Positions 1 through 9,910 of a DNA stretch of 64,000 bases are shown here, one piece after another. The stretch lies in assembly GCA_030272155.1 (NCBI GenBank), contig CP126194.1, positions 4,331,501 to 4,395,500 on the forward strand, read 5' to 3'. Below the pieces are notes generated by a model. The model had not been told where the DNA came from. It ran no database searches and was given only the letters and a program-made list of their open reading frames with translations. The translations under genes and the position numbers were made by a program. This DNA comes from Tetradesmus obliquus. Lineage: Eukaryota; Chlorophyta; Chlorophyceae; Sphaeropleales; Scenedesmaceae. Position 1 is the first letter of the stretch. Every line of letters begins with the position of its first letter.

Positions 1-1595
1 ATGCTGCAGCGCATATATTTCATTGATGAGTGCAAATTCTGGATGTCAGACCTGGCAGGCGGCTCCGTCAAAGTCTATTGTGATGCACACGATGAAAACG
101 TGCATGCTGTGCTGCCATGCAAATGGATGCGCAAGGGCAAGGACGCAGAGCCGGTCAAGTTGCACTTTGTCTGCGCCGTCAACGCTGTGCACGGGCCCGT
201 CTACTGCACGTTTGTCACCGGCACAACAGACAACAAGGACCATGCTGGCAACCTCAATGTACCGTACATGGTGAGTGTGCGCTGCTACTGCGCAGGCGCC
301 TGCCATTGAAAGACATGCCAGCCCTGCTGTACTATGTAGTAACAGTCCCGCAGTGCTTTTTTTAGTGCTGTAGTGAAGCTGCAGCGCTGCCCGTCCTCTG
401 CTGTGAACATAACAGCAGAGTAACTTGGTGACAGTACAATGACACCACCTGCAGCAGCAAGCTGGAAACCAATGTGCAAGGATTGGTGCATGTCACATCC
501 GCGCGTGCTCACGCGCAGCACACTGCCCCCTGGCTGCAGCCAGTTGTCATATGCTGCAGCGCAGAACTCAAAGTCGCGCTCCAGCACCTGCTGCCTGCTG
601 CTGCTGTAATAACCCTTGTCATGACATGAGCCATCAGCTTGAATCAGCATGTTGTGCTGTGCATGGATGAAATCAATCCGCCCATCCCACCAGTCCACTG
701 CTACCTGAGCACACATACTGCTGCTGATGCCTAACCAGTACAGCATGTGCACCAGCTGCTCCTCGCTTGTGTGCATGTAGCCCATGCATGTGCCAACCAT
801 ATCAGCCAGCACACATGCACACATCTTGCACTGAAGCGCTGCTGCTGTGGCGACTGCACGCGGCGCGCAGAACTTGAAGTGCTGCACACCTGGCAAGCAG
901 CCAGTCAAGCCCCAGAACAATCTCTGCCCCCTCATAGACTTGGTGATGTATCTGACCTTGTCTGCACTGAGCCTGATGTAGAAGCGTCCCATCGCATCCA
1001 TCCACACCGCTGCGTTGCGCTCCTGCGCTGCTAACAAGGCTGCGCGCTGCCAATCCGGCAATTCTTGCACCTGCAGTTGAAGGACAAACCAACCCAGCAG
1101 GCCAAGAGCATGACTCAGCTGGAGTTTGTTCACTGCATGATTGAGATCAAAGACATAGCCAACCAACAGCAGGCGCAGCGCGGCACTACGCCGCTGTACA
1201 TCTTTGACAACCCAAGTGTTCACCTGGGGAAGGATGGCCTACAGATGTTAGTTGCAGGCGGCATCAATGAAGATCAACTGCTGCACATTGCACCCTACTC
1301 CCCAGATTTCAACAAGCCCATTGAACATGCATTTGGCAGCCTCAAAGCAGCCTTCCGCAACTACTTGTATAACAGCTGCCAGCTGGGTGGTGCTGATGTG
1401 AAGCCGCGAGACCTGCAGCACGGCCTGAACAACACCTTCATGAAGATCACAGCTGCATCTGTCATGGCTGATGTATTGAAGCTGCCAGATTTGTGGAATA
1501 TGGTGCGCAGTCGCAAGAGGAGTCTTTGTGTGTGCCGAGACGGGAAGCAGCGCAGCGGCACTGCTGGTGACTACCCCAGGAAGGACCAACGCTGA
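1..1595 (+). mobile_element. DDE transposase (Tc1/mariner / IS630-like), 5' end outside window
   Basis: Two exons encode the catalytic core of a DDE-superfamily transposase, which cuts and joins transposon ends. Exon 1 (1-270) holds the first acidic motif FIDEC near residue 9. Exon 2 (1077-1595) holds IFDNPSVH (second Asp) and YSPDFNKPIEH (Glu). Spacing between the second Asp and the Glu is 38 residues, so the class is DD38E-like. The two exons join in phase 0 across a clean GTGAGT...CTGCAG intron (271-1076, 806 nt). The N-terminal DNA-binding part is missing because the window starts inside the gene; the ATG at base 1 is probably an internal Met. The end is a TGA near 1595. I could not find terminal inverted repeats. 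The family is clear from the FDN.S.H and PIEH motifs; whether the copy is active is unknown. Confidence 0.75.
285..1001 (-). CDS. Antisense ORF in the transposase intron, possible PD-(D/E)XK/Vsr-like nuclease
   Basis: A long open frame on the opposite strand fills the transposase intron. It stays open from 1223 to 285 (312 codons); the first Met inside the intron is at 1001, giving about 238 residues. The middle reads RIDFIHAQHNMLIQADG followed by SCH, then RDFEFC and SVLRV. This order (DF, x-DG, H, RD, VLR) resembles DUF559/very-short-patch-repair type nucleases, whose core is DF...l.iE-DG..H...RD...vlR. Here the usual Glu before DG is Gln-Ala, so catalysis is uncertain. A Cys cluster (CKMCAC) precedes it. 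Intron-located nucleases are often homing enzymes. The alternative is a chance open frame in GC-rich DNA. I favour a real or recently real gene because motif order and spacing fit. Confidence 0.4.
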   Translation of the reverse strand: MDAMGRFYIRLSADKVRYITKSMRGQRLFWGLTGCLPGVQHFKFCAPRAVATAAALQCKMCACVLADMVGTCMGYMHTSEEQLVHMLYWLGISSSMCAQVAVDWWDGRIDFIHAQHNMLIQADGSCHDKGYYSSSRQQVLERDFEFCAAAYDNWLQPGGSVLRVSTRGCDMHQSLHIGFQLAAAGGVIVLSPSYSAVMFTAEDGQRCSFTTALKKALRDCYYIVQQGWHVFQWQAPAQ

Positions 1596-4500
1596 GTCTG
1601 CTGTTGTGCTGCTGCATGGCATGTTGTGCATGTGGCTGTCAGCTGCATGCAAGATGGCTGGCAGCAGTGCACAGGCTGACTTTCAGAGAGCCCTTGAGCT
1701 CACCTGTTTGAAGGCACCTGCGCTTGCCGCCGTCCTGCATGTTCGCACCGCCCGGGGCTTGGGAGGTGCTGGCACCATGCTGCTGTAGGGTGGTTACTTC
1801 CTGGTGTTCACCTGAGAGCGAGTGTGGGAAGGAAATGGCATGTTCAGAAGCTTATTGTATGAGTAAAATATATTTGGATGTTGAGCTTTGGTGCTTAGAC
1901 TTGTCAGGAGTGGTTTCTGCTTTGAACGACTGCTGCCAGGCAGCAAGGCACTTGGTGGCCATTTCACATACAGGCATTTGCAGTCATGCTGAATTGCCGA
2001 TTGTAATGGTAAAACGATTGGTATAATTCAATTACGCTCGTAGCTATGGAACATGGCTCCTGCTGCTGTCACTCGCGTTGGTTGTGACAACTGTTGGCCT
2101 GCCAAGCGATATGCACGGAGCCTGCAAGAAACATTGCGGTTGATTTTTTTCTATATTTGACGATTGCTTTAAGCATGGCGTGAGCCGAAATAAGCTGCGG
2201 TATGGTGAAGAACTTCAAGACGGAATGTGCCGTGAAACAAGCCTGCTCCAGGCCACACAGCTTCCACGCTGCTCACTAATTAACGTCGACACATTATGTA
2301 ACGTACCTTTGGTTGAGGTAGAAAACCAACTGCGAAGGGCCCTCGCAAGCCCACCGTGCAGGTGAGCCTGACGGGTCAACACGGATGTCCAGAGCACTGC
2401 AGCTCGATCGTGTTGCTGCAGCACCTGCAAACAATTGGTATTGAACATTAAACGACGTTAAACACAGCGCTGTGCCGAAAGCCTTCGCCAATAAATTTGG
2501 TGGCAGCAGTGAGGCACCTGCTGGCACATGCTGCTGCTGTCACGCCCACCAACGACTGCAGTTGAAAAACACATGCCACCGTGATTCAAAGCACACATAG
2601 CTGTAACGTTTCCTGCTGTTTGCTGCTGCTGCTGCTCCTGCCCAGGCAGATATCATGTATTGCAAACAGCACTACTGCCGCAGAAAAATCAGCTGCATAC
2701 CCAGCAGCAGCAGGAGCACATCAGCCATAGCATAAAAAGGTAGGTGTGCACTTCAGGCACCAAGTCCAGGAACAGCAACAGAAGGGATGCAGTGCAGGCT
2801 AAGAACTGCTGCAGCAAAGGCTGGCATGCATTGACAGTCTCAGCTAGGTATGGTACAAACGTAGCATCTGCATTTTGCAACAAATCAACACAGCTTGCAA
2901 GCAGACAGCCATGCTGGCATAGCAACCTGCTGTATGTGGCAGGCACAGTAAGGCACAGCTGCCAGTGCTGCTGCTTTGGTTTGCTTGCATCCCAGTTGCA
3001 CAGCAGGGCCCTCACCTGCCAGCAGCAGCAGCTCCAAACTGCTAGTGATTTTGAGCTCCAGAATTCGCCTTGATCACACAGCATGGATGTTTGCAGGAAA
3101 CTGTGTAGAATACTAGTACTCAACAAACTCTGTGCAGCCACACTAGCTGCACGCGCGCAGCAGCTGCCGGTGGGCCTGAAGCGGTGTTGAGCAGTATGTA
3201 ACAGATATGACAGTTGAAATGGCATGTGCAGCGCACAGCGCAAAGCAGCAGAGCGCAACCGCAGCGGCAGGGCACTTGGCACACCAGAACTGCAGTGCCT
3301 GATCAGCCAGCAAGGGAAGGCCAGAAGTATTACAATACACATCAAAACACGTTGCAGGCAGCAGCACCCACAGCAACACTCTACAGCGCAAGTTAACATA
3401 TGTAACAGCCGAGTCGGGGCACTTCAGGGCAACGTGTTTTCAGCACTTTTCTTGCAGCACACTGTGCCACTGCTAACAGCTCAAATTGATTTAGATTCGT
3501 CGTTGAAAGCTTGACATTTATATGTAGGCCACTTGTTCGCTACGTTTGTACCATGCCCAGCTGGCTGTCGGCAATCACACCAAAGCAAATGTCGCCCCAG
3601 CACAGCAAGAGCCTGGGTTCACCTGCACCTATGCATTGGTATATCCGTGACATTCTGCAGCCACAACCACAGCTACATTGCTCAAGGCCTCACATGACAC
3701 CTGAAAGGCAGATAATAACAAGACCGGCATGAGATTGTGCACGTGCCAGTGTACAAATGACCACAAGCCATGTGCGGGCCAGGCACCATCTACACACATG
3801 TCCACCAGAGGACATTGCTACATTACGGCCCTGCAGCCTTATGCAATCACCCGGTCCACTCATCACCCAATGTATACCTAGCACATCTATTGGCTATTCA
3901 GCCTCAAGAAACATTGATATCTGATTATCTGCCTATGCAAACATATCAGCAATGCACTGCCAAGCTAGCACACCACACGTGCGGAGCCCCCTGACAAAGC
4001 AATGACAAGTGGACTCACTGCTCGGAGCAAAGAGTGCCAACTGATTGAGCCCCAGCACAGGCACAAAGACAGCCAACTGCCGTTTTTGCCATTGCCTACT
4101 CGACCTTCACCATATTTTGTGAAGGCAGTGCTCCCTGCTGCCCTGAGAGGGAGCTGGTAGCACACACGTGAACCAAACACCTGCCGCCACACTTGTGGAG
4201 ACTGACACCGGTCAGAGCAGTAGCTGTTGGTGAGCTGTATGACTGTGGTATGTGTCTATCATATGCCTCACCCTGGCTTGGTTTTACCCAGCTCACCCAG
4301 CTCATGCAACGTGTCGATGATCACGTGCATCACCAAAGAGGGCATGTAGCGCCCAGAGGATATTCCCTGACACACATTGTGCATGGCAGCCCGCCATATT
4401 CAGCAGCCACATATACCCGGCTCTGCAAACGGCGGTACCCACCTTGATGCATGGCGGTATTGCACTGATGAAACACGACGTCACAAGAAGTAACAAATGA

Positions 4501-4611: not shown

Positions 4612-7115
4612 CTATGGGCTTGGAGACGGCAGTGCTGGAGTCAGCAACTCAGCCAGCAGCGGCACTGTTTTGCCACACAGCCTGAAAGGGCCCCTGCTGG
4701 CAGCTGCCAGGTCACGCACATACCCCAGGTTCGACATGACAACGTCAACAAGGATGTCTGGGTATGTTAAATACACGGACTCTAGTACAACGTCTGCCAG
4801 TGCAAGAAGATCATCTATAAGCTTCACCAGGCGGAGCGGCTGTTTGGGTGTAAGCAGTATGCAGCCAGGCTTGGAGGTGTCATTCCTCAAACCTGGCTTC
4901 AGCTGTGCCTTGATTGCTGCTGCTCTGGCCTCTCTGCTGTCCTGGCGGAACTGCAGTGCAAAGGTGTTGTCGGGCTGCATGACGTAGGCCGCGCCATATG
5001 CTATCTTGATATTGCCATTGTTGCCCCAGTTTGGTGACCAGCTGAAAGCAGCACAGCACAACATGGATTTGGTGAAATGAACAGCAGCTTTGTAGGGAAA
5101 ATTTTCTGCGGACCGCATTTTGTACAATACCATAAATTGCCAAATCCCTACCTACTTGATGGTGCATTGACTAACACTACACATGGCTCAGGCTGTAGAG
5201 GTTGTGCTGGCAATTATCCCAGTGGCGTGCATGACACTGTCCTGCTCTCAGATCTATCTGTGAGCCTTATGCGCATGTCAAATGGGTCAATGCGCTGTTC
5301 TCAATGCTGCTGCTGTCTCAAAACATGTCGCACACGACTGTTTCTGTTGCTGCCTCTGCTGTGATCACACCTGTTCTTGCACAGCCAGTGGCCTTGTCCA
5401 TTGACCGTATCGCGCCAACCGTAGCAGAACAGGGCATGCATGGTGTGTAATTCCACACCCAGGGACAAGTCTTCTGATGTGTCAAACACAGCAAATGTGT
5501 TGTCGTATGCTTTCAAGCGCTCAAATCCAGCGTCCGACATGGCAATGGATGTGATGACCCCACCATTGAGCATTATCTGGCTCTTGACCATGCTGATGGT
5601 GCTGAGGGCGTTGGACTCGTATGCCATTGAAAACCTTCCACCTGCAGCCACAACAGAAAGCAGTCAACATGACATACATGATGATCATGTGCTGCTGGCC
5701 ACCTGCTTTGATCAATCTGTTTTTCTGCTGCTTGTGAAAGCCAAGCTGTTTAGCCATAGGGTGACAGCTTTTGGCTTGCAAAAGCAGAGAACATTGGCAC
5801 AGTGCATCAAGTTTGTGAATCATGGGCGCAGGTTCTGTGCTTGTACCCATTACACAACTCTGAAGAGATTGAAGCAGCAAGATCTAGACACGTCTGCCAA
5901 GAGTCCAGAGAAATCACCAGCACAAGCAGTGCTGCTCCTCTCTGGGCCAAGCCCATGCTTGACCAGTGAGTGGCACTCACCCTCTGGCAGCTGGGAGGGA
6001 CAAAAGGCAGCACGCCTGCAGTCCCTGCTGTCACCCTCATATGGGAAGCAAGCACGCGAGGCCCAATTCTTCACGTAGTCCGCGGCCACGTACTGTAACA
6101 AGTCGCTAAAGCTTAATCCTGTCATGCAGTTGACCCGGGGTAGCAACCTGCAGAGCAACATAATCGCAGCTGTGTGGCCTGCAGCCAATCTTCCTAGTGC
6201 AGACAGCTGTCAATGTTCCATTCTTGTCAAAAGCATATCGTCTAGCTTTGATTATGGTGTAAGTATGTGCTGGAGAAAAAACCGGCTGAAACACCAACCA
6301 TGCCCACATCAGCCGGCAGATGACAGGCTTTCATGCAGTATAGATTTGCCTACTTGCAGAAGCTGATGTCCTGCTCTGACAGGCTGAGCTTGTTCCAGCT
6401 TTGCTGCAAATACACGTTGACAGCAGCCTCAGCAGTTGCAGTGAACACAAAGCCCACACACGCGGAGCAAACGCCCTGGTCCTGCACAGGCAACAACCAT
6501 ATCAACAACAGAGGGCCATGAATGCGGGGGGAGCCATGTGCCGTGCGGCAAAATACAAAACCTGCTTAAATGTTGTCAAGCACGACAGGCAGTGTTTGAA
6601 TTACTTGACACCAGGAGCAGCACGGACACTTGCTGACAGGGACAACGTTGCTGGCAGGCTGAGCAAGGCACGCATAGTGAGCAGCCCAAGAACAAACGCT
6701 GCCCGTTGCTGGTGGTGTCTTCCACGTCTCAGCTGCGACTTGCAGCAACCTCCTGCTCAGTGTTACTCAGCCCCATATGCCGCACAACGTGGCGCACCTG
6801 TGCAGGGCTGATGAAGGCGCGGCGCCCAGGCGTGTCTGCTGTGCTGTTGGACGAATAGGCTGCAGGGGTGAGCCCCAGCAGCAGCCAGTCGAAGCATTCA
6901 GGGCCTTCTATGTATTTTGTCCCACACACTGCCTGTGCAACTTCAGCTTCAGAAGATGCACTAAGGTTGCGCAGTCTGTCTGCCCGGACTTTGCTGCTTT
7001 TGTGAATTCGGCGTGTGACATTGGGCGGTGTTCCCAGGCCTCTCTCAAACACCAGGCCGGTTGTGCGGCTGCCAACGCAACACACAGCAAGCAACAGCAG
7101 CAGCAGCAGCAGCAT
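4612..7115 (-). CDS. Papain-family (C1A-like) cysteine peptidase, copy A
   Basis: Secreted or vacuolar thiol peptidase. Five exons join in phase: 7115-6798, 6481-6354, 6147-5981, 5641-5371 and 5041-4612, giving about 437 residues. A poly-Leu signal peptide (residues 1-15, coded by a CTG run) is followed by a propeptide-like region. The active site is QDQGVCSACVGF with oxyanion Gln108 and nucleophile Cys114. A Cys-rich segment follows (ACFPYEGDSRDC). His273 lies in MHALFCYGW and Asn294 in CKNSWSPNWGNNG; the KNSW motif is formed only after splicing. LSLSEQDISFC is also classic for the family. The C-terminal extension ends at a TAG just inside a Ser-Pro stretch. Copy B follows upstream in the same direction, so the pair is a tandem duplication. 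Family call is firm; substrate unknown. Confidence 0.85.
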
Positions 7116-7597
7116 GTGCTCAAAATTGTGCCTCAGCTAACTTTGCAACATGAAGCTGGTGCGCAATGGTGGCTCCACCGTTGGATATGCATCTTGCTGA
7201 AGTGACACATCACTGTGCCTTGAGCTACAGCTGCAGCTACAGCAAACATGGAAAAAAAGCACATGGCTGCAGCCCTGCCCCAGGCTCTGATAGGGTTGCC
7301 CTGCACTTTGACAACAGCAATGTGCGAGATGTGTGTGCAGGCTTTCGTTGCAGCTGCTGCCCAGTGCATATGCCGCAATGTCATACGCCTCACAACGACG
7401 ATGGAGGCTCGGTTGGCGGTGATGGTACGGGACTGGGAGATGGCGATGGGGTTGGGGCTGGCGTGGGTGATGGGCGCGGCGGTGGGCTTGGAGACGGCAA
7501 AGTTGGTGGCGGCACGCCACCCAGGAGTTGCACTGAACTGCCACACAACCTGAAGGGGCCTTTGCTGGCAGCTGCCAGATCACTGACATACCCCAGG

Positions 7598-9910
7598 TTA
7601 GAAGTGACGACGTCTGCATAGATACGTGCGTCTGTGTACTAAGGGCGTTGAAGGATCCGCTGTGTCTGCAAGTGCAACCAGGTTGTCGACTAGCTTCACC
7701 AGTCGCAATGGTTGTTTGGGTGTGAGAAGCATGCATCCGGGCTTGGTGGTATCATTCTTCAGGTCCGGCTGCAGTTGTGCCCTGATTGCTGCTGCTCTGG
7801 CTGCACTGCTGGCCTGGCCGAACTGCACTGCAAAGGTGTAGTCGCGCTGCATGATGTAAGCTGCGCCATATGCCAATTTGATGTTGCCGTTGTCGCCCCA
7901 GTTTGACGACCAGCTGCATAAGCAGCGCAGCACCACGTGAACAGTTGCTGGTGACGTGAGTGGCATGCACGCAATTCAAGCGTTGGTGCAATGGCAACAT
8001 GCTACACATGCCATGTGTACAGTGTCGCAGGACAGCTTGAACAAGGTGATCAAATGAAAACGCCTGTGCATTTGCAGGTGGCACAAGCATGTGATTCGCT
8101 ACAGCTGCTGCTGCTATCACAGCACTCACTGCAGGCCTGTCCTAAGATACTGTTGCTACTGTTGTTGCCGCTGCTGCTGCTGTTGTGTCATTCATCCTCA
8201 CCTGTTCTTGCACAGCCAATACCCGTCACCATTTGCCGTGTCCTGCCAACCGTAGCAGAACAGGGCATGCATGTAAGCAGCAGCCTCTGGGCCACCAGTG
8301 CTGCCCTCTTGGGACAAATCATCTGTTGAGTCAAACACAGCATTGGTGTTGTACACCTCAAATCGCTTGAAAACAGCCTGCGACATGGCTATGGAGGTCA
8401 GGACGCCACCATTGAGCATGATTTGGCTCTTGACCTTGCCGATGGAGTTGAGGGCACTGCCTCCATATGCCATAGAGAAAGCACCACCTACAGTTGCAGA
8501 CAAGGTAGCACACAAAGCTGCACCGTTGTCAAGGACCAGAATGTGCTCTGTGTTATGAGACTGACGTATTTGTTACTGCAGCTGACGCAATCTATCATCA
8601 ATGGAGGTTGGCAGTGTGCCACCACAGGTGTGCACAGTACGAGTGTGTTGTATCTCCATGGTGTTGAATCATACGCCAACCTTTCTGATACTGCAACACA
8701 AGCACCTTGACTTGCCTGGAAACTGCCAGCAAGGAATGTTACCTGCTTTACAGACGAGATAATTGCACTCACCCTTCGGCAGCTGCGAAGGACACGCGTT
8801 AGCGCGCGCACATGATGTGGTGGCATAACCCTGATATGGCCAGCATTCACGCGAAGCCCACTGCTCCACCGTTCTATTAACCACATTCTTTGTCAGATCC
8901 TCGTATGACATTCCTGATCCGCAGTCAACCCGGGGCAGTAGCCTGCAAGGGCAAAGCAACAGCAGTTGTTCCATACACCATGCAACCATGCTACAGCGCT
9001 AGCGCTGTACTAGTTTTAACACAGCAGTCACTGCATGCTGCTACTCTGTGCCACTATGCTTGCAGTTGACAAACACCATCACGCCCATAGCAGCTAGCAA
9101 CTGCTATAAGGTTGAGCAGCAGAACCCAGAAGTTGCTCACCTGCAAAAGCTGATGTCCTGCTCTGACAGGCTAAGGTCATTCCAGCTCTGCTTCAGATGC
9201 ACGTTGACAGCAGCCTCAGCAGCTGCAGTGAAGGCAAAGCCCACACATGCAGCGCATTGCATTTGGTCCTGCGCGGCACCACCATCATCACCAATGAAAG
9301 GAGATTGGTTCACGCAGACACAAGTAAACAGCTTTGACGCTGTTTCTGCACAGGGATTAGACTGGCAGAGGGATGTTGCAGGCACAGCTAACAGTAATCG
9401 GGGATCACGACATCAGCTGCCGCACAGCGGTCACAAAAAATGCATGCGGCTTCTCGCACACAGCACGCAACGCAGTACTACTGCTAGTTGCTGCTACAGT
9501 TGTTGTGCCTTCAGTGCTTTTACGTGTCCGGCTGGCAGCACGCCAGTCTCTGCATGTGCTGGGTATGCAGCGCTGCTCCGCGCACCTGTGCAGGGCTGAT
9601 GAAAGGCTTTGCCGCCAGGCGTGTCTGTTGTGCTGTTGGACGAATAGGCTGCAGGAGTGAGCCCCAGCAGCAGCCAGTCCAAGCAATTCGTACTTGCTAC
9701 ATTGTTCTGCCCGCACACAGCCTGCGCAACATCAGCTTCAGATGACGCGCCGAGGCAACGCAGTAAGTCTGCCTTGCCTCTGCTGAACATGTAACCGCGC
9801 AGCGTAGCATTGCGCGTGGACCCCAGCGCCTTTGTCGCATTGTATAACAGACCGGTACTGCGGCTGCCAGACCAAGGGGCAGCAGGCGACAGCAGCAGCA
9901 GCAGCAGCAC
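7598..9910 (-). pseudogene. Papain-family cysteine peptidase, copy B (two frameshifts)
   Basis: Tandem paralogue of the downstream copy A with the same exon order: 9910-9586, 9268-9141, 8942-8773, 8487-8202 and 7913 onwards. The signal peptide is again Leu-rich. The active site reads DQMQCAACVGF, the His motif MHALFCYGW, and the Asn motif again becomes KNSW after splicing. Compared with copy A there is one extra base in exon 1 (A run at 9602-9604), so exon 1 ends in the wrong phase for exon 2. There is also a 4-base excess near 7625-7665 in the last exon, which stops the frame at 7598. Past that point another frame still reads an intact SNLGY...GPFRLCG tail into a Pro-Ser-rich extension down to about 7400. 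Other differences are in-frame. It is probably a decaying copy; sequencing errors could mimic this. Confidence 0.7.

Follow-up and report, generated by a model that had tools for sequence, protein, structure and literature searches.

What is a reading frame that resembles a nuclease gene doing inside an intron of a transposase gene, on the opposite strand? The question is raised by the left end of a 64,000-nucleotide stretch of the Tetradesmus obliquus genome (contig CP126194.1, positions 4,331,501 to 4,395,500; G+C content 57%), referred to here as the window. The answer favoured here, with some reserve, is that both genes belong to a composite-like DNA transposon with two enzymes. In this model, a coding module (E) lies between two long direct repeats (S), the transposase works on the S ends, and the predicted nuclease probably promotes the growth of single insertions into arrays.

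The transposase gene starts outside the window, to its left. Only the C-terminal part of exon 1 lies within it (1 to 270, plus strand), as an open frame that carries the motifs FIDECK, DAHD and TGTTD and ends at GTGAGT. The intron extends from 271 to 1076, in phase 0, with the donor ATG/GTGAGT and the acceptor CTGCAG/TTG. Exon 2 (1077 to 1595; coding 1077 to 1592, stop codon 1593 to 1595) supplies the second D and the E of the triad, which reads FIDECK, IFDNPSVH and APYSPDFNKPIE, with 38 residues from the second D to the E (DD38E).

The only transposase family shown by a Pfam scan is DDE_3, whose match to exon 2 is weak (E of about 8e-5 to 1e-4; 22.6 bits, short of the curated cut-off of 28.6). 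The Mos1 mariner transposase is the top solved match for a profile built on exon-1 relatives (E=0.0017). The spacing falls within the DD34-41 D/E range of the IS630/Tc1/mariner (ITm) transposases, and the motif APYSPDFN(K)PIE is also found. Unlike those elements, this one makes a variable 3-bp target duplication instead of TA, has a composite layout with direct repeats, and carries a second gene. Because it fails the TA duplication of Tc1/mariner, the transposase is called mariner-like only, a DDE_3-like DD38E enzyme as judged from its sequence.

The genome contains another family, B, that can be compared with the family of the window, family A. Their transposases are 67% identical over 312 residues of exon 1 (including the part outside the window) and 71% over 161 residues of exon 2. 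Family B has the donor GTGAGT, the acceptor CACCTGCAG and the phase, all as in family A, and CTGCAG is unchanged in all 13 sequences aligned. When the spliced transposase was used to search the database, 18 relatives were found, each spanning at most 63% of the query, one of which (P0023) is family A itself. All 18 leave the frame at the kept donor, reading V and then S, R or G and ending within tens of residues; none of the 18 aligns with exon 2. Comparison between families and relatives thus backs the phase-0 intron, with the donor, acceptor and phase originally assigned to it.

One model proposed for such an arrangement in the initial annotation is a homing element that parasitises a transposon. 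Here the nuclease would cut intron-less transposase genes, and the intron would spread by gene conversion. The location of the nuclease gene in an intron is what this model expects, and Vsr-like folds do occur in some homing enzymes. However, the intron begins and ends with GT-AG signals, every one of the 18 transposase relatives keeps its donor, and a joined exon 1-exon 2 query found no intron-less joint among the best 40 of 538 candidates in the organism's own genome. Moreover, the nuclease gene is antisense to its host intron and is probably split, with a second exon outside the intron. Homing is accordingly a very improbable explanation, and it was set aside.

The main coding exon of the putative nuclease lies on the minus strand at 285 to 1070 (coding 1070 to 288, stop codon 287 to 285) and encodes a Cys/His cluster followed by a Vsr/DUF559-like domain. 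The frame was initially described as running from 1001 to 285. It is present with that stop codon, but conserved coding starts at 1070 and not at the methionine codon at 1001: the alignment of relatives continues upstream of that methionine, where the structural model is confident as well, so that coding extends to 1070 at least. The frame remains open as far as 1238.

Relatives of the nuclease number 46, with 21 found by protein search (E <= 0.01) and 25 more by a profile search (all E < 1e-24) in which the 7996 candidates with the most words in common were scored. Family B has a nuclease 57% identical to that of family A, at the same antisense position in the transposase intron. Because of the homologues and this family B gene, the antisense frame is, on comparative grounds, a gene and not chance. 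No family nearer than A and B was found in the organism's own genome with P0007, P0022 and P0036 as queries (best 146 of 280, 142 of 275 and 122 of 355 candidates, respectively). Relatives in viral and prokaryote contigs were sought, and none was confirmed.

Both profile and predicted structure support the idea that this second gene encodes a nuclease of Vsr/DUF559 type, a likeness first suggested from a motif pattern. In an alignment of the window protein with 42 of the 46 relatives (P0020, P0058, P0059 and P0064, misjoined or short, were omitted), 17 of 43 members match Pfam DUF559 at E <= 0.1, the best at E=1.3e-6; the window protein itself reaches E=0.057 and 13.7 bits, under the cut-off of 20.6. 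The predicted structure (predicted local distance difference test, pLDDT, 88.7) has a Vsr-like alpha/beta fold, and Vsr/DUF559 nucleases are its best structural match. The putative catalytic residues are D133 (43 of 43), H150 (42 of 43) and E103 (37 of 39), and the D, H and Cys/His residues as a group are nearly invariant. Compared with known Vsr/DUF559 proteins of the PD-(D/E)XK superfamily, this one differs in having Q for E in the (E)xDG motif, an N-terminal Cys/His cluster, and a eukaryotic transposon as its carrier.

Other searches added little. An earlier model built from 21 sequences (pLDDT 51.8) was too weak and was not used; an NCBIfam scan gave nothing useful; and no solved structure matched the first nuclease profile (a first alignment comprised 20 of the 21 relatives from the protein search). 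Middling structural matches were to mitoribosome chains of Toxoplasma and Tetrahymena, which we take to be RAP-domain proteins, and to Card1/Can2, SfsA and receiver domains. They were read as reflecting a common fold and nothing more.

Could the frame simply be a by-product of composition, or of coding on the other strand? Open frames are common on the strand opposite coding exons, and positions 1077 to 1238 of this one are antisense to transposase exon 2. The conserved part, however, lies in the intron, and distant relatives and the confident Vsr-like model argue against a by-product, as does constraint specific to this frame. When families A and B are compared, the ratio of nonsynonymous to synonymous substitution rates (dN/dS) is 0.53 for the nuclease frame, the lowest of six frames, and neither family has a stop codon in it; the remaining five frames of this DNA give 0.66 to 1.04 and contain 2 to 14 stops. 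That no gene is present is hard to believe. For the transposase, dN/dS is 0.27 in exon 1 (735 bp compared) and 0.35 in exon 2. The nuclease value points to purifying selection on that gene between the families.

The nuclease might be a passenger that was formerly useful and is now drifting, its frame kept open by recent array amplification of intact units. Two observations agree with this. First, 11 distinct family A sequences carry 5 synonymous and 32 nonsynonymous nuclease changes, as against 21 and 19 in both transposase exons pooled. Second, the matched stretch is interrupted by a stop in 14 of the 125 family A copies scored (at least 125 exist), and a single group on C17 accounts for 11 of these. 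But selection between the families and the near invariance of the D, H and Cys/His residues speak against it, and 104 of 105 scored family B copies (at least 105 exist) are free of stops. We regard a passenger as unlikely. Over both families, comprising at least 230 copies, 215 of 230 scored are stop-free in the matched stretch, so that the frame, which might have proved broken in all other copies, is intact in most. Three transposase copies outside the nuclease copy list (L028-L030) also carry the nuclease.

Two side observations concern these copies. The excess of 32 to 5 in recent copies of the nuclease (288 to 1070) has a binomial probability of 0.04, assuming a neutral synonymous fraction of 0.27; it could reflect relaxed or diversifying selection. 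In one copy, at C6:5868484 (L004), E is broken at window position 1248 and joined to an inverted S, and the nuclease has a stop.

The next question is what kind of element carries the two genes. Self-comparison of the array that runs into the window gives a unit of 4280 bp, of which E accounts for about 3557 bp and S for 723 bp, and the units are 100% identical over a self-overlap of 9283 bp. E is the coding module, with transposase and antisense nuclease, and it lies between two 723-bp direct repeats. Single insertions have the form S-E-S, with both S in direct orientation. Solo S copies are also found (best 40 of 293 candidates scored). The right-hand S of the window array occupies 2841 to 3563. 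In family A, each S bears its own inverted ends, CAGCTRGGYATGGTACAAACG; the end motif has 2 matches in the window against 0.02 expected. The S ends of family B, read from outside, are CAGTGGGG and CACTAGGC. The right end of family B (CACTAGG) and the 3-bp duplication resemble those of CACTA/EnSpm, but the ends of family A read CAGCT and the left end of family B reads CAGTG; membership of that group was considered and set aside.

Immediately to the right of the window array stands the target duplication GCT (3564 to 3566), whose partner GCT lies left of the array, outside the window, at C4:4321498-4321500. Among 13 sites with both flanks read, 12 have such matching 3-bp duplications (flanks of other copies, seen at one end only, are excluded). 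They match for all seven arrays, namely C4-A (GCT), C14-A (AAT), C12-A (CCG), C5-A (ATC), C4-B (ATG), C10-B (AAA) and C13-B (TAA); for all three single S-E-S insertions, on C15 (AAC), C16 (CAC) and C6 (AGC); and for two of three solo S copies (GTG and TAT), the third, on C6, being mismatched (ACA/AGA). The S-E-S layout, the gene content, and the duplications around single units, solo S and arrays are established by sequence comparison. Because the matching duplications stand at the outer flanks of the arrays, each of the seven most simply grew from one insertion.

The arrays can become very long. The longest, on C13, has at least 51 nuclease copies in 212 kb, a few of them inverted. The C4-B array has at least 38 over 145 kb and the C12 array at least 24 over 92 kb, and the C5 array holds at least 27 copies of transposase exon 2 over 106 kb, spaced mainly by E plus S or by E alone. 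Where two E modules meet without S, the bases CTG stand between their ends in family A and CAG in family B, as would be expected if S were excised with a 3-base scar. In the public data from which the relatives come, 14 of the 46 nuclease proteins and 4 of the 18 transposase proteins have a longest contig of 4150-4500 bases, while for another 5 and 2, respectively, it exceeds this length. This fits, though indirectly, units of about 4.3 kb that are circular or arranged in tandem. As a separate observation, the arrays at C3:7158670-7213833 and C5:4680915-4710876 have units in both orientations, so inversion or insertion takes place inside arrays.

This layout has a close parallel in KolobokP, a composite-like animal DNA transposon made of an internal region (INT) between long terminal direct repeats (LTDR) in the order LTDR-INT-LTDR (Kojima and Bao 2022, PMC9587614). 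That paper describes inverted ends on every LTDR, solo repeats, repeat-sharing multimers with outer target duplications, and INT-INT joints. It also describes two opposed genes, one strand encoding a DDE transposase and the complementary one a nuclease. Its authors propose that unequal crossover is induced by the nuclease. The algal element is alike in its internal region between long direct repeats with short inverted ends of their own, in its solo repeats and (LTDR-INT)n-type multimers inside one target duplication (the 12 of 13 flank pairs above), in its joints lacking the repeat, and in its opposed transposase and nuclease genes.

The differences lie in the parts. KolobokP duplicates TTAA, whereas the duplication here is 3 bp long and variable (the twelve triplets given above). 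Its nuclease is a His-Me finger enzyme encoded downstream of the transposase; the one here is DUF559-like by profile and Vsr-like by fold, and is encoded within the transposase intron. The transposase here is mariner-like, with DDE_3 and Mos1 as its best matches in a comparison that did not include a Kolobok model. The arrays here reach at least 51 units, and the host is an alga and not an animal. KolobokP is known from shellfish, and the two elements appear to be unrelated and reach the same layout with other proteins: the algal element is not a KolobokP, but by analogy works like one.

Under the model favoured here, the process would involve both enzymes. The transposase would act on the ends of S and could move S alone, S-E-S or larger blocks; its removal of S inside an array would leave the 3-bp E-E scar. 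The nuclease would nick or cut DNA of the element, with S, the E-S joints or their immediate surroundings as the likeliest targets. Repair that copies an adjacent unit of the sister chromatid would then add E-S units in place. Because the nuclease gene sits within the transposase intron, and a transposase exon probably within a nuclease intron, the two genes would be hard to separate. We infer the action on S ends, the excision of lone S and the repair between units; for nuclease-provoked array growth, the strongest argument is the analogy with KolobokP.

Another model gives the nuclease a part in transposition itself, through second-strand cutting at the S ends or resolution of circles, with arrays as a by-product of unequal crossover between S repeats. 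A precedent for such a partner is TnsA, which acts with TnsB in transposition. The gene pair is kept together in both families, and the units that bear target duplications are bounded by S, as this model would predict. Mariner-type transposases, however, need no partner nuclease to our knowledge, and in KolobokP the second part is played by a homing-type enzyme, which points to recombination over end cutting. We consider a role in transposition rather unlikely.

Three points weigh against growth of the arrays through the nuclease. Plain unequal crossover would suffice for arrays to grow. Recent constraint on the nuclease is undetectable among the 11 distinct family A sequences. Finally, Q144 stands in 43 of 43 proteins at a position where an acid is expected.

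Arrays in which a unit and one repeat are added beside an existing repeat are also formed by bacterial IS26-type translocatable units (PMC9587614), and this is one possible route here too. The host differs, and we know of no nuclease gene in IS26-type arrays.

Where, then, does the nuclease gene begin? Upstream of 1070, the frame of family A reaches a stop before any in-frame ATG. In family B such an ATG does occur, on the strand opposite transposase exon 2, and an unspliced start is possible there from its sequence. A scan for phase-compatible ATG...GT exons found 9 in A and 8 in B, with two homologous ATGs, at 1328 and 1778. The first lies inside transposase coding sequence, where sense coding could explain its conservation; the second lies outside it. 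The candidate exon from 1778 to 1704 (minus strand) has an ATG and 24 further codons, 25 in all, encoding a basic N terminus, and its donor is CAG/GTGAGC in A and AAG/GTGAGC in B, at equal length and position. A shorter candidate exon with the donor GTGCG likewise occurs in both.

Several observations favour this exon. Its ATG, open frame, length, phase and donor are kept in A, B and the C6 lineage; it is present in all ten aligned family A sequences; and GTGAG is kept in 12 of 12 sequences that cover the donor. In a control with resampled and mutated sequence, confined to a 245-bp stretch, 0.17% of trials produced such a conserved exon when two lineages were considered, and 0.04% when three were. 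A codon test was less clear, with p=0.27 for A-B and p=0.034 for B-C6, where one reverse-strand frame gave 0.027. On the minus strand, a pyrimidine-rich stretch precedes CTGCAG, strikingly so in B. The exon is likely to be real.

If it is, the candidate nuclease intron (1703 to 1071, minus strand, GTGAGC...CTGCAG) holds transposase exon 2 in antisense, the transposase intron holds the nuclease exon, and the palindrome CTGCAG (1071 to 1076), the same in 13 of 13 sequences, would be read as the acceptor of both genes. A fuller proposal is that the genes are interlocked, the main exon of each in an intron of the other on opposite strands with this common acceptor, and that the KolobokP life cycle was here invented independently for a second time, with a Vsr-like, repair-type nuclease that makes single insertions grow in place into satellite-sized arrays. 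We advance this whole picture only tentatively, as somewhat short of an even prospect.

The remainder of the locus can be described briefly. The stretch from 2400 to 3560 is 70% conserved between families, above the level of 1815 to 2400, yet no frame in it is convincingly coding between them (lowest p of six frames 0.011; 5 and 10 stops). Binding sites for the transposase, promoters or a nuclease target may lie there. An open frame of 244 codons (2689 to 3423, minus strand) spans the E/S boundary. Beside the array stands a host gene pair, 4612 to 5151 and 7390 to 7975 (minus strand), perhaps duplicated, with common peptide strings (NGNIK.AYGAAY.MQ.D.TFA.QF) and P/S-rich tails; we presume that it may be pherophorin-like.

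Of the two origins first suggested for the locus, a two-enzyme transposon with opposed genes is the one that agrees with the gene order kept in two families and the mostly stop-free copies. The accompanying view that no such system had been described holds in part: none was found for an element of this algal type, but KolobokP in animals has the same layout with other proteins (PMC9587614). The open-access literature, searched apart from subscription papers and repeat databases, gave no account of this element, of eukaryotic transposon-borne DUF559/Vsr genes, or of genes interlocked in this way.

It would be unusual for two opposed genes to have a single palindromic splice acceptor between them. 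If the model is correct, one plan was reached both by a transposon of animals and by one of an alga, although their transposases and nucleases differ: direct-repeat ends, transposase and nuclease on opposite strands, and multimers inside a single target duplication. With the KolobokP parallel, the link proposed between the nuclease and the growth of arrays can be put to the test. If true, it would also suggest a transposon route to long satellite-like arrays.
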